Assembly: GCF_009696315.1 (NCBI RefSeq)
Contig: NZ_VUMG01000002.1
Location: 372,001 to 436,000 of the forward strand
Direction of reading: 5' to 3'
DNA length: 64,000 nt
From: Cutibacterium porci
GTDB lineage: Bacteria; Actinomycetota; Actinomycetes; Propionibacteriales; Propionibacteriaceae
Position numbers and translations under genes: made by a program. Under the pieces are notes generated by a model, which was not told the origin of the DNA, did not search any database, and worked only from the letters and a program-made list of their open reading frames with translations. How positions within the stretch are numbered: the stretch's first letter is position 1; each line of letters starts with the position of its first letter. This document shows positions 7,926 through 12,845 of this stretch, piece by piece.

Positions 7926-8513
7926 TCACGAGGCGTGCTTAGCAATTCTGCGTGCAGTGAACTCGTCGAGCTCGGCGTCCTCCACCGGGGCGAGGCGCTC
8001 GCTCGGCAGATCAGCGAGGCTGCCCTGGACGTCGCGCCATACCCCTCCCAGTGCAATAGCGAACATCCCTTGTCCACCGCGCAGCAAGTCGATGACCTCG
8101 TTGTCGTTGGTGCATTCGTACACCGAGACCCCGTCACTCATGAGAGTGACACGGGAGAGGTCTTCAACCCCGTTACTGCGCAGGTGGTCGATCGCTACCC
8201 GGATTTGTTGCAGGGACACCCCGGCGTCAAGGAGTCGCTTGACAACCTTAAGCATGAGAATGTCGCGGAACGAATACAACCGCTGACTTCCCGAACCACG
8301 AGCTGCTCGAATCTCTGGACGGACAAGCCCAGTTCGTGCCCAGTAATCCAGCTGACGATAGGTAATACCGGCAGCGCCAGATGCCACCGGGCCACGAAAA
8401 CCGATGTCCTCAGGCAACGGGGCAAAGTCGCCCTCGAATAGGGCGTCCTGTCCGCGACGCGCGTGGCCGTCGAGAGGAGTCTCAACACTCGGCTGCTCAC
8501 CGGTCGTTGCCAT
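7926..8513 (-). CDS. MerR-family transcriptional regulator
   Basis: A 195-residue DNA-binding protein. The winged helix of MerR type lies at about residues 40-120: ITYRQLDYWARTGLVRPEIR, QRLYSFRDILMLKVVKRLLDAGVSLQQIR. It corresponds by position and sequence to the second MerR gene of the conserved actinobacterial order garA-merR-bfn-merR (Rv1830 in M. tuberculosis). No metal-binding Cys pattern is seen. The ATG at 8513 is preceded by AAGGG; a GTG 15 nt earlier is possible. It is the last gene of the long minus-strand run; 178 bp separate it from the nuclease-family gene upstream, so it may have its own promoter. Confidence 0.88.
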   Translation of the reverse strand: MATTGEQPSVETPLDGHARRGQDALFEGDFAPLPEDIGFRGPVASGAAGITYRQLDYWARTGLVRPEIRAARGSGSQRLYSFRDILMLKVVKRLLDAGVSLQQIRVAIDHLRSNGVEDLSRVTLMSDGVSVYECTNDNEVIDLLRGGQGMFAIALGGVWRDVQGSLADLPSERLAPVEDAELDEFTARRIAKHAS

Positions 8514-8691
8514 GTCGTCACCCTTCACCAGTTCTACTCATGGTCGACGAAGCGTGACGCCTCGCCGAACGACTCTGACGCTACGGCGCGAACCTCACGT
8601 CAGGGTCGAAGCCACGCCGTCTGCCATGCATCACGCCTGTCCACCTCCGCTAAACATCCTTCTCACTAGGCATTTTGCCGTGGCCTCAAGG

Positions 8692-9201: not shown

Positions 9202-9915
9202 TTAGTTACCTGACCAATGCTCCAACATGTCGTAAACCATCGCGGTATGGGCGTGCATCATCACTTTGGTCGTCTCAGCAGCGATTTTAGACGCTTGATC
9301 GGGATGCCTCGCGTGGGGAATGAGGGCTTGCTCGATGAGTCCAGCCTCATGTTCTGCGGCCTGTCTGATAGCGCGCATGTGACGGGTGTCCATACCGTAT
9401 GCCATCAACCGACGCGCGGCGACGCAAATGACAAGGGCTTCTTGACCATAGTACGAGGCTCCTCGCTTTGGACGCACCAATTGGTGACGCTCAAGCTCCA
9501 TAAGCATGGCTTCGGTAATACCGGAAGCACGAATAAGCTCGCGCCGGTTCATCCGAATAGGCCCACGAGTCCGGACAATTCCAGGACCAGTCGGCTCAGG
9601 CTGACGATCAGCAGCATCGTCGTTTTCGGTCGGAAGGGGAGGTGCCTCAGACACTGGAGGTTCCTCACCCCGGTCCATCATGTCCAAGTGGTCTCGGATA
9701 ACCCGCAGCGGCTGGAAATGGTCACGCTGGCACGTCAGGATGTACCGCAATCTTTCGACGTCAGAATCGGAGTACTTGCGGTATCCCGATGGTGCCCTCT
9801 CAGGGGAGAGCAGGCCCTCGGACTCTAGAAATCGGATCTTCGAAATGCTCAGGTCGGGAAAATCCGGTTTGAGAGTCTTCATGACCTGCCCGATTGTGCG
9901 GACAGATCTTGGCAT
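9202..9915 (-). CDS. ftsR: MerR-family cell-division regulator FtsR
   Basis: A 237-residue regulator orthologous to corynebacterial FtsR and M. tuberculosis Rv1828, which activates ftsZ and other division genes. The N-terminal MerR winged helix (residues 5-80) reads RTIGQVMKTLK, SISKIRFLESEGLLSPERAPSG, YRKYSDSDVERLRYIL. A charged linker (about 85-115) leads to the C-terminal effector-like domain with ELIRASGITEAMLMELERHQLV. Its ATG overlaps the garA stop by one base (TGATG), so translation is coupled to GarA, linking division control to the kinase-signalling protein. Confidence 0.9.
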   Translation of the reverse strand: MPRSVRTIGQVMKTLKPDFPDLSISKIRFLESEGLLSPERAPSGYRKYSDSDVERLRYILTCQRDHFQPLRVIRDHLDMMDRGEEPPVSEAPPLPTENDDAADRQPEPTGPGIVRTRGPIRMNRRELIRASGITEAMLMELERHQLVRPKRGASYYGQEALVICVAARRLMAYGMDTRHMRAIRQAAEHEAGLIEQALIPHARHPDQASKIAAETTKVMMHAHTAMVYDMLEHWSGN

Positions 9916-10454
9916 CAGGCGCGACCGGCCCCACTCGTCCCCGATGTCGTACCACCTGTGTGGTAGGTCATCCGGAATTTACCGATCTGAACTTCATCAC
10001 CGTCACGCAATACCGCTGAACCATCGACAAGAGTGCGGTTGACATACGTGCCGTTGAGGCTGCCTTGGTCCTCAATAATCATTCGGCCATCGTGGCGAAT
10101 GAACTTCACATGGTGTCGCGACACCGTGATGTCGTCGAGAAAGATATCGGAATGTGTGGAGCGCCCTGCCGTCGTCTCATCCTGATCTAGCAAGAACTGG
10201 GCACCAAGATTCGGGCCTCGCCGCACCACCAACATGGCATTCTCTGCGGGAAGATCAGCGATGTCCTGCAAGACTCCGGCGGGAAGATCCACATTCGGCG
10301 ACGTCTCCTCGGTCACCGTCGACTCGTTGATAGTCGGGATCACACCAGTATTGTCACCCGGTGTGTCGATGGGTACCCCGAGTCGGGTCCCGCATCGGGA
10401 GCAAAAGTTTGCGCCATCTTCGTTGACATGGCCGCACATGGGGCACTTGTTCAT
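9915..10454 (-). CDS. garA: FHA-domain metabolic regulator GarA/OdhI with zinc ribbon
   Basis: A 179-residue signalling protein. The forkhead-associated domain (about residues 72-165) has AGRSTHSDIFLDDITVSRHH and GSLNGTYVN, matching GarA/OdhI, which binds and inhibits 2-oxoglutarate dehydrogenase and glutamate dehydrogenase until phosphorylated by PknB/PknG. The kinase site appears as EETS with Thr51, a single Thr where GarA has two in ETTS. Unlike the mycobacterial protein, it begins with a zinc ribbon (C4, C7, C18, C21). GAGG precedes the ATG. It lies between the GcvH-like gene and ftsR. Confidence 0.92.
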   Translation of the reverse strand: MNKCPMCGHVNEDGANFCSRCGTRLGVPIDTPGDNTGVIPTINESTVTEETSPNVDLPAGVLQDIADLPAENAMLVVRRGPNLGAQFLLDQDETTAGRSTHSDIFLDDITVSRHHVKFIRHDGRMIIEDQGSLNGTYVNRTLVDGSAVLRDGDEVQIGKFRMTYHTGGTTSGTSGAGRA

Positions 10455-10488: not shown

Positions 10489-10881
10489 TCATTCTAGGGG
10501 TACCTCCCCCATGCTCGCGAGGTATTCATCTGGGTCGAGCAACTCGTCGAGCTGCTCTGGATCCGACATTCTTACGTCGAAGAGCCATCCGTCGCCCCAA
10601 GGGTCAGCCTCGACCTCTTCAGAGCCGATCGCTGGGTTCACCGCTACAACCTCGCCAGTTACCGGCGAAACAATCTCCCAGGTACGCGCTGAAAATTCTA
10701 CGTCTCCACAACAATCACCGCAGACAACCTGCTCGCCATCATCGGGAAGGGACAGCGACTCGACCGCTCCCCAGCGATCCAGAAGGACCGACGTGAATCC
10801 CAGTCGCACTCGATGACCGTTGCCGGGCCTCACCCATAGGTGGTCCGAGGTACACAACACATCATCGGGAATCTCGGTCAT
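10489..10881 (-). CDS. GcvH-like protein lacking the lipoyl lysine
   Basis: A 130-residue protein that aligns with glycine cleavage H protein throughout: EIPDDVLCTSDHLWV at the start, the hammerhead core, SPVTGEVVAVN and DPWGDGWLFDV. In true GcvH the ESxKxxSD motif carries lipoate; here the aligned stretch is VEFSARTWEIVSP, with Ala65 at the Lys position, and the whole protein contains no lysine. It therefore cannot be lipoylated. It has Cys10, 54, 57 and 58. It occupies the gcvH slot next to garA (as Rv1826) but must do something else, perhaps structural or regulatory. Start ATG 10881 has GGAGG 5 nt upstream; no gcvP or gcvT is near. Confidence 0.85.
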   Translation of the reverse strand: MTEIPDDVLCTSDHLWVRPGNGHRVRLGFTSVLLDRWGAVESLSLPDDGEQVVCGDCCGDVEFSARTWEIVSPVTGEVVAVNPAIGSEEVEADPWGDGWLFDVRMSDPEQLDELLDPDEYLASMGEVPLE

Positions 10882-10957
10882 CACCACCTCCATGACAGGC
10901 CGACGTAAAAAATGTTCGCACTCGCAGAGTACCGCGCCGCGCGCCTTGATGCCTGCC

Positions 10958-11710
10958 TCATCTCGCTGGTGTTGCATGAGTCATTGGTTGTGGATGAGCT
11001 ATCGCCGTAATAGTAAGATCCTGCGAGGTCGTCACCTCGACGCTGGCACCCACCTTGTCTGACTCCATTTGGGAGACCAAACCGCCACGGAATTTCGCTC
11101 CCTCTTTGAGATCGTGAGGCTCGCCAATAATCGTAAGGGTGTACGGGCGGGTGACGGTGGCGCCGCTAACTTGCAGACCATCTGGGCTCGGCGCAAACCA
11201 CGTGTCGGCAACGACGCGCACCGTGTTATTGAGCATGATGGCCTCAGCCCCAGCGTCACGCATTTCTTCAACGGCATCGAGCATCATGTCTGAGGTGACC
11301 TTGTTGTCAGGATCATCAATAGTGATCGTGACACCAGGCCCGTGAACGGGGACAGTACCAGCCAAGATCTTCATCCGAGTAAGCCGTTCCTCAGCTTGCT
11401 GCTGAGCAACCTTTCGAGAATCAGCGCCCGACTGGAGCTCCCTTGTCGTGGCGCGTAGATCAGCAATTTCCGAATCAAGCTGGCGCGACGAGTCCGATAA
11501 CGAATCCAGCATCGTCACTAGATCGGCTCGACTCATGGTGGAGTAGGCGTCCTGATCGTGACGAGATCGCACCTGAGTAACGACCATGAATGAGCACAGA
11601 CACAAGATGATGGCAACAAGAATCTGGCCAGTCGATACTGAGGCTAGGTCCTTGCCAATCGTGCGCCAGCGATGCCCCGCCCGGTCTCGTCGATCGCGAT
11701 GCTCAGGCAT
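10958..11710 (-). CDS. DUF881 membrane-anchored protein
   Basis: A 250-residue protein with one N-terminal membrane helix (about residues 28-46, LVAIILCLCSFMVVTQV), a coiled-coil-like stretch (60-115) and the extracytoplasmic DUF881 domain with GPGVTITIDDPD, DAGAEAIMLNN and TIIGEPHDL. It matches the Rv1825 position. The family is linked by gene order to sporulation-type and division/membrane genes in Gram-positives, but its activity is unknown. The ATG at 11710 overlaps the sbp stop by 8 bp, showing coupling; a start 30 nt earlier is possible. A second DUF881 protein lies two genes upstream. Confidence 0.85.
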   Translation of the reverse strand: MPEHRDRRDRAGHRWRTIGKDLASVSTGQILVAIILCLCSFMVVTQVRSRHDQDAYSTMSRADLVTMLDSLSDSSRQLDSEIADLRATTRELQSGADSRKVAQQQAEERLTRMKILAGTVPVHGPGVTITIDDPDNKVTSDMMLDAVEEMRDAGAEAIMLNNTVRVVADTWFAPSPDGLQVSGATVTRPYTLTIIGEPHDLKEGAKFRGGLVSQMESDKVGASVEVTTSQDLTITAIAHPQPMTHATPAR

Positions 11711-12035
11711 GAAGTACCTCGCGCCGAATGGCGGCAGCATTAGTAAAAATACGAATACCTAAGACGACGACGACCGCAGTCGACAGTTGCGAACCCACAC
11801 CAATCTGATCCCCCACCCAGACAATGAGAGCAGCAATAGCGACATTGGACAAGAAGGACACAACGAAGACACGGTCCGAGAACGTGTGAGCCAAATAGGC
11901 ACGCACTGCACCGAAGATCGCATCCAGCGCAGCAACGATCATGATTGGCAAATACGGCTGCAAACCAGGCGGCAGGGTCGGATTAACTGCGATACCGATA
12001 ATGATCCCGACCACCAAGCCGATGAGCGCAATCAT
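11703..12035 (-). CDS. sbp: Small basic family membrane protein (DUF1290)
   Basis: A 110-residue membrane protein with three or four hydrophobic segments, matching the small basic protein family: MIALIGLVVGIIIGI at the start, IMIVAALDAIFGAVRAYLAHTFSDRVFVVSF in the middle (in two pieces), and LGIRIFTNAAAIRR near the end. In firmicutes it lies next to ylmH/ftsA-type division genes; in actinobacteria it is sandwiched between two DUF881 genes, as here. GGAAGGA precedes the ATG. Function is unknown, but constant linkage suggests a complex with the DUF881 proteins. Confidence 0.9.
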   Translation of the reverse strand: MIALIGLVVGIIIGIAVNPTLPPGLQPYLPIMIVAALDAIFGAVRAYLAHTFSDRVFVVSFLSNVAIAALIVWVGDQIGVGSQLSTAVVVVLGIRIFTNAAAIRREVLHA

Positions 12036-12077: not shown

Positions 12078-12845
12078 TCAACGATGGGGGCTCGCGTGAC
12101 TCACCGATGCCTTCGATTCCGGCACAGAAACCCGGTCTTTCGTCGTCACCTGATAGGTGATCGACGAATTATCTCTGAGGTACGTCATCCAACGACCGCC
12201 AGGTGTATCTGCCAGTTCAGCAGGAAGCTTCTGCGGTGAGCCAATGGCTTCGACGACGTAGGGGCGAGACAGCGACACGTAATCGACCGTGATCGCCGAT
12301 CCGGCAGAGCGAATCGCGGTGCGAGGCCCAACACGGTGTCCGTTGATAGCTACTGCTTCCGCGCCGGCTTGCCACAACGCATTGACCAACCGTCGCATAT
12401 CCTTATCGCCAAGTTCGTCGGCGGGCGCAGCGTTGGCGTCATCCACGATAATGCGTATTCCCGGGCCCACCATTGCAGTTGTCGCCGAGTCCAGACCTAC
12501 CTCTTCGTCAATCGGGGAAGCCGTCACCCCCTTCATGGCATTGACTGATGCACGCAACCTATCCAATTCAGCGTGCTGGGCCGATTCGTGAGCCTGAGCC
12601 GATTGCACGTGGGCGACAAGGTTTTTGCGTTCTCGCGCATCCAGAGGCGCCCGGGCAACTGTCGACCGCCATGCAATACCGATGAGCACGCCTGTGACGA
12701 GGAGTAACACCACGGCTGCCACCCCGATCGGCCGACGAGAGATGGCACCCGGGTCCTGATCGTGGCGTGCTTGGTAGTTGGGATCGAGTGCCTGCTCACG
12801 AACCTCACGCAACAGGTCCATCGACGCGTCCGGACGCTGCTTCAC
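12078..12845 (-). CDS. DUF881 membrane-anchored protein
   Basis: A 255-residue paralogue of the DUF881 protein downstream, at the Rv1823 position. One membrane helix (about residues 43-61, VAAVVLLLVTGVLIGIAW) is followed by a helical stretch and the DUF881 domain with GPGIRIIVDD, QAGAEAVAINGHRVG and VEAIGSPQKL. The GTG start overlaps the stop of the CDP-alcohol transferase gene by four bases (GTGA), so the genes are co-translated. An internal ATG at 12821 is an alternative start. The function is unknown. Confidence 0.85.
   Translation of the reverse strand: MKQRPDASMDLLREVREQALDPNYQARHDQDPGAISRRPIGVAAVVLLLVTGVLIGIAWRSTVARAPLDARERKNLVAHVQSAQAHESAQHAELDRLRASVNAMKGVTASPIDEEVGLDSATTAMVGPGIRIIVDDANAAPADELGDKDMRRLVNALWQAGAEAVAINGHRVGPRTAIRSAGSAITVDYVSLSRPYVVEAIGSPQKLPAELADTPGGRWMTYLRDNSSITYQVTTKDRVSVPESKASVSHASPHR

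Follow-up and report, generated by a model that had tools for sequence, protein, structure and literature searches.

The window, a stretch of 64,000 nucleotides from Cutibacterium porci, contains a GcvH-like ORF on the minus strand whose ATG start codon is at 10881 and whose stop codon is at 10489. This ORF lies between a gene for a DUF881 protein and a garA homologue. The features of the region are listed below.

10489 to 10881, minus strand: GcvH-like ORF, 130 aa, no lysine
10887 to 10891, minus strand: putative Shine-Dalgarno sequence GGAGG, fixing the start at 10881
10687 to 10689, minus strand: codon of Ala65, the former lipoyl-lysine site (translation and alignment)
10708 to 10722, minus strand: codons of Cys54, Cys57 and Cys58 (CGDCC)
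9915 to 10454, minus strand: garA/odhI homologue with zinc ribbon and FHA domain (FHA 3.5e-18), 34 bp downstream of the gcvH-like stop
9202 to 9915, minus strand: ftsR homologue, MerR type (profile match), a conserved garA neighbour (PMC6683498)
8692 to 9171, minus strand: bifunctional nuclease domain protein, bfn (profile match)
7926 to 8528, minus strand: second MerR-type regulator (profile match); gcvP comes next in relatives
10958 to 11740, minus strand: DUF881 protein, upstream of the gcvH-like gene (profile match)
11703 to 12035, minus strand: small basic protein, DUF1290, sbp (profile match)
12078 to 12845, minus strand: second DUF881 protein (profile match)

As GGAGG is positioned 5 bases 5' of the ATG, a 162-aa version of the ORF is unnecessary. 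The zinc ribbon of GarA is N-terminal. The GarA phospho-motif, GDNTGVIP, lacks the first Thr of the usual ETT, a replacement shared by the window's genus and its sister genus, while every aligned lineage retains the second Thr.

A sequence-only reading of this DNA had described the product as an H protein from end to end in which alanine replaces the lipoyl lysine. The Pfam model GCV_H covers residues 11 to 124 (1.4e-19), and the score of 70.6 bits against a gathering cut-off of 22.2 places the protein in this family. The NCBI GcvH equivalog TIGR00527 also matched from end to end, but at 69.2 bits, below its cut-off of 115.85. AlphaFold2 gave an H fold (pLDDT 90.5, pTM 0.83). The confident Foldseek matches, including all of the top PDB matches, were exclusively H proteins (best TM 0.83–0.91), among them M. 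tuberculosis GcvH (PF01597; PDB 3HGB; TM 0.91), which has the same length. Lys-bearing actinobacterial GcvH proteins also occupy the same slot beside garA. The described likeness is thus borne out along the chain. Translation likewise confirmed Ala65, the three cysteines and the lack of lysine, and Ala65 aligns with the lipoyl lysine of solved H proteins. As the chain contains no lysine at all, lipoylation is impossible, as had been stated, and glycine cleavage by this protein is excluded chemically. The protein therefore shares the fold of functional GcvH but differs in lacking the lipoyl lysine of the ExxK motif, in scoring below the equivalog cut-off and in being encoded away from gcvP and gcvT; gcvP is ~309 kb distant and has its own gcvH there.

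A sequencing error at site 65 was ruled out, as seven other genomes of the genus read A, V, G, S or D at this position; a lysine in sister strains would have indicated a local error, and all eight genus copies lack it. We also rejected selenocysteine or a recoded TGA, because the in-match TGA seen in three relatives serves as a stop and falls three codons short of where the alignment ends. Nor does a functional replacement such as a fixed Asp fit, since the site varies freely: five different residues occur in eight species, and variability that high is found at only 4 of the 130 sites. Every copy in the genus has E62, F63, W68, E69, P73 and G76, and 33 residues are invariant over this genus and its sister genus together. 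The site-65 loop is markedly different in the two genera, reading EFSxRTWE in one and ETDxESVD in the other. The lysine position has been released, and the fold has not.

Two other features had been considered unusual. The lack of lysine from the entire chain is real but less odd than had been suggested, as Lys-bearing garA-adjacent GcvH proteins are themselves lysine-poor, with a single lysine at 36 and two at 50 of 117 loci (a set in which a few genomes are counted more than once). As the lipoyl lysine is one of these, a chain that loses it would have one lysine left or none. Zero lysine therefore adds little beyond loss of the lipoyl lysine. The CGDCC cluster, proposed to bind metal, is nearly private to the window's genome. 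Within the genus only Cys58, which is common to most Lys-bearing relatives and most GcvH of this lineage, is conserved; site 54 is R, C, S or A and site 57 is S, C, T, I or M. This variation among close relatives rules out a conserved metal site.

The window's genus was sampled with nine genomes (2.2–2.8 Mb) and the sister genus, g4, with five. Eight of the nine carry the gene, open and at full length in each case; in G004 the slot between DUF881 and garA is empty, a clean deletion. All five sister-genus copies are also open and full length, with D, E or A at site 65, such that the gene persists in 13 of 14 genomes. It has been dropped as well in G033, in sampled g28 genomes and in other lineages, indicating that it is dispensable. 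Lys-less copies with D, S or T at site 65 occur in three further genera (G031; G060; G057 and G085). Whether the loss is fixed in Propionibacteriaceae, as had been considered, depends on the level: it is fixed in the genus (8/8) and the sister genus (5/5), but most family members keep ESTK. Outside the family, every garA-adjacent GcvH that we read retains the lysine, including the garA-adjacent copies among 20 low-scoring loci fetched from the order and the class. A tree built from GarA, FtsR, the second MerR protein and sbp implies four losses of the lysine. The GcvH tree, which is less resolved, differs from the garA-based tree in grouping the G031 copy with the window's clade, a placement that may reflect a long branch. 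These trees suggest about four losses, with a minimum of three.

The position of the gene is best understood from Lys-bearing relatives. Among 56 sampled Propionibacteriaceae genomes whose garA-side gcvH encodes the lysine, 50 have gcvP at a distance of 2.5–10.4 kb (median 3.5 kb; three further drafts were excluded because of contig breaks), in the order gcvH-garA-ftsR-(bfn)-merR-gcvP. None of the 17 Lys-less genomes has gcvP near garA. Fourteen of them carry gcvP at another place, with a second, higher-scoring gcvH close by that has ESTK wherever it was aligned (genus g1, G068); no gcvP match was found in the other three, G057, G060 and G085. The association between lysine status and local gcvP is strong by Fisher's test (p = 6e-12), although the genomes are not independent and amount to only three to four phylogenetic contrasts, of which nearly all agree with expectation and none contradicts it. 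The six Lys-bearing exceptions comprise four g22 genomes and two drafts in which gcvP had no match. In g22 (L060, L062, L064, L066), an exception to the loss pattern, both GcvH copies have the lysine and the garA-side motif is ESVK; g22 would serve well for comparison with regard to a second role that depends on lipoate. Our main result is that the garA-side slot belongs to glycine cleavage. The ancestral locus explains why the gene is found there, and position alone is thus no evidence for GarA signalling.

A search for a second gcvH was rewarded in the window's genome, where an intact gcvT-gcvH-gcvP operon is located at the distance given above for gcvP. Profile matches identified gcvT (GCV_T, 2e-88) and gcvP (GDC-P, 5.9e-161), and the GcvH encoded between them carries the lysine in ESTKSV. 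In the GcvH tree the operon protein falls in a branch of operon-type copies only, apart from garA-linked copies, with a support of 80, which is not strong. The window's GcvP is 59% identical to the GcvP of a class-level operon (L232) and 46–48% identical to garA-linked GcvP of the family. These data are best explained if an operon from another lineage replaced the local genes, perhaps through gene transfer, the transfer itself being inferred; the operon GcvH might instead derive from an old duplication.

From these results the GcvH-like protein is probably a displaced glycine-cleavage H protein that now serves as a carrier-less, protein-binding H domain. Originally, gcvH beside garA would have served the GcvP from the same locus, whose gene follows a few genes further on, as is the norm in Propionibacteriaceae. 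Comparison of the loci indicates that in the ancestor of the window's genus and the sister genus glycine cleavage passed to a complete gcvT-gcvH-gcvP operon, with GcvH of another lineage, and that gcvP disappeared from the garA locus, the direction of this change being our reconstruction. The garA-side copy, freed of lipoate carriage, then lost its lipoyl lysine, which, given known H-protein chemistry, precludes glycine cleavage. Purifying selection has kept the remainder of the H fold, and the protein probably binds a partner through its old H-protein surface. Candidate partners are products of the garA operon and the usual H-protein binders GcvP, GcvT and LipB/LipA. A broader and rather less likely version is that garA-linked H proteins have a lipoate-independent binding function, perhaps present already alongside glycine cleavage in their Lys-bearing ancestors, that became the sole function once an incoming gcvTHP operon had assumed the catalytic role.

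The proposed displacement could also have left a functionless relic that lingers inside a conserved operon. We consider this reading unlikely for the window's clade. Pairwise NG86 dN/dS of the gene within the genus had a median of 0.13 (range 0.088–0.261), compared with 0.047 for garA, ~0.08 for the DUF881 genes and 0.09 for the operon gcvH. Maximum likelihood codon estimates of omega, obtained from ~126 codons at a dS near 1, were 0.15 for the window's genus, 0.066 for the sister genus and 0.036–0.073 for five Lys-bearing genera. Fixing omega at 1 (kappa at 2) worsened the fit by 117 and 134 log-likelihood units. Decay of the frame had been named as the observation that would count against a function; instead, purifying selection was found and neutral omega was strongly rejected. 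Neither a broken frame nor neutral evolution, the marks of a pseudogene, is seen in the genus, and 33 invariant residues in two genera are not expected of a relic. However, omega in the window's genus is 2–4 times that of the Lys-bearing genera, which indicates that part of the constraint has been lost. The repeated losses of lysine and the deletions described above would suit a relic as well. The same is true of the G057/G085 pair, from genomes without gcvP, in which dN is 0.245 versus a dS of 0.51 and the G085 C-terminus is divergent; with constraint this weak, decay is likely there. After displacement, then, the gene was deleted or weakly constrained in some lineages, yet it is under purifying selection in the window's genus and the sister genus. 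Purifying selection, fixed loss of the lysine and a second, lysine-bearing gcvH together make a non-lipoyl role plausible.

As to what that role might be, the protein could compete with the operon H protein for GcvP, GcvT, LipB or LipA and in this way tune glycine cleavage. The genome encodes lipoyl synthase and a full glycine cleavage system (GCS), and the H fold and most of the site-65 loop are retained. On the other hand, G057 and G060, two of the three Lys-less genomes in which gcvP is missing, also gave no lipA match, leaving neither target there, and the strong difference in the site-65 loop between the two genera speaks against it too. This kind of regulation is improbable. The sequence-only reading had tied a second role to GarA or to the DUF881/sbp block; the non-lipoyl part of that proposal remains plausible as stated above, but the tie to either neighbour comes from position alone. 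The DUF881/sbp part is not supported, being adjacency only, and neither gene was seen in the flanks of two Lys-less cases (L057, L067). Docking of the H fold on GarA, or coupling to its phosphorylation switch, is very improbable: the gene is directly upstream of garA in a retained slot and the second Thr of the GarA motif is kept throughout, but the ancestral GCS locus accounts for the adjacency, GarA is retained in genomes with an empty gcvH slot, and no covariation between the first Thr of the phospho-motif and the GcvH lysine was seen in the aligned lineages. The odhI/garA-ftsR-nuclease-merR block is strongly conserved and the sequence upstream of odhI is variable (PMC6683498), a pattern that fits these findings. 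The conserved place beside garA is more the trace of an old glycine-cleavage locus than a sign of GarA signalling.

Annotating the gene as 'glycine cleavage system H protein' misstates its function. The H protein is usually treated as a pure lipoate carrier. Streptococcal GcvH-L is a lipoylated GcvH-like paralogue found outside the GCS operon. The fold of our protein matches it (PDB 5A35; TM 0.73). LbpA of sulfur oxidisers is a GcvH relative that was recruited elsewhere and acts via its bound lipoate (PMC6067878, PMC10332631). The GcvH-like chain differs from both in having no lysine to which lipoate could be attached. Simiate/ABITRAM resembles it in its proposed descent from an H protein (~20% identity reported to the GCS H protein) and in a role outside glycine cleavage, but is eukaryotic only (PMC3859600). 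Within the literature collection consulted, full-text searching found no description of a lysine-less GcvH beside garA. The approximately four independent lysine losses, each where glycine cleavage was moved or lost, constitute a natural test for a further job of H proteins, to which strong conservation in at least one Lys-less clade adds.

Divergent GcvH-like genes were also encountered elsewhere. Tandem copies with the motifs ESGKWVGP and ESAKWVGP are present in two genomes from other families of the class (L220 1921–2703; L222 1957–2789), with no garA, gcvP or gcvT match in the 5 kb that were read. In genus g28 the operon GcvH is divergent and its motif is DSTKATFG (L068 6208–6561; L069 5705–6043); the g28 members checked, both those with a GCS (G042, G059, G133) and those without (G097, G123, G138, G142), have no gcvH beside garA.
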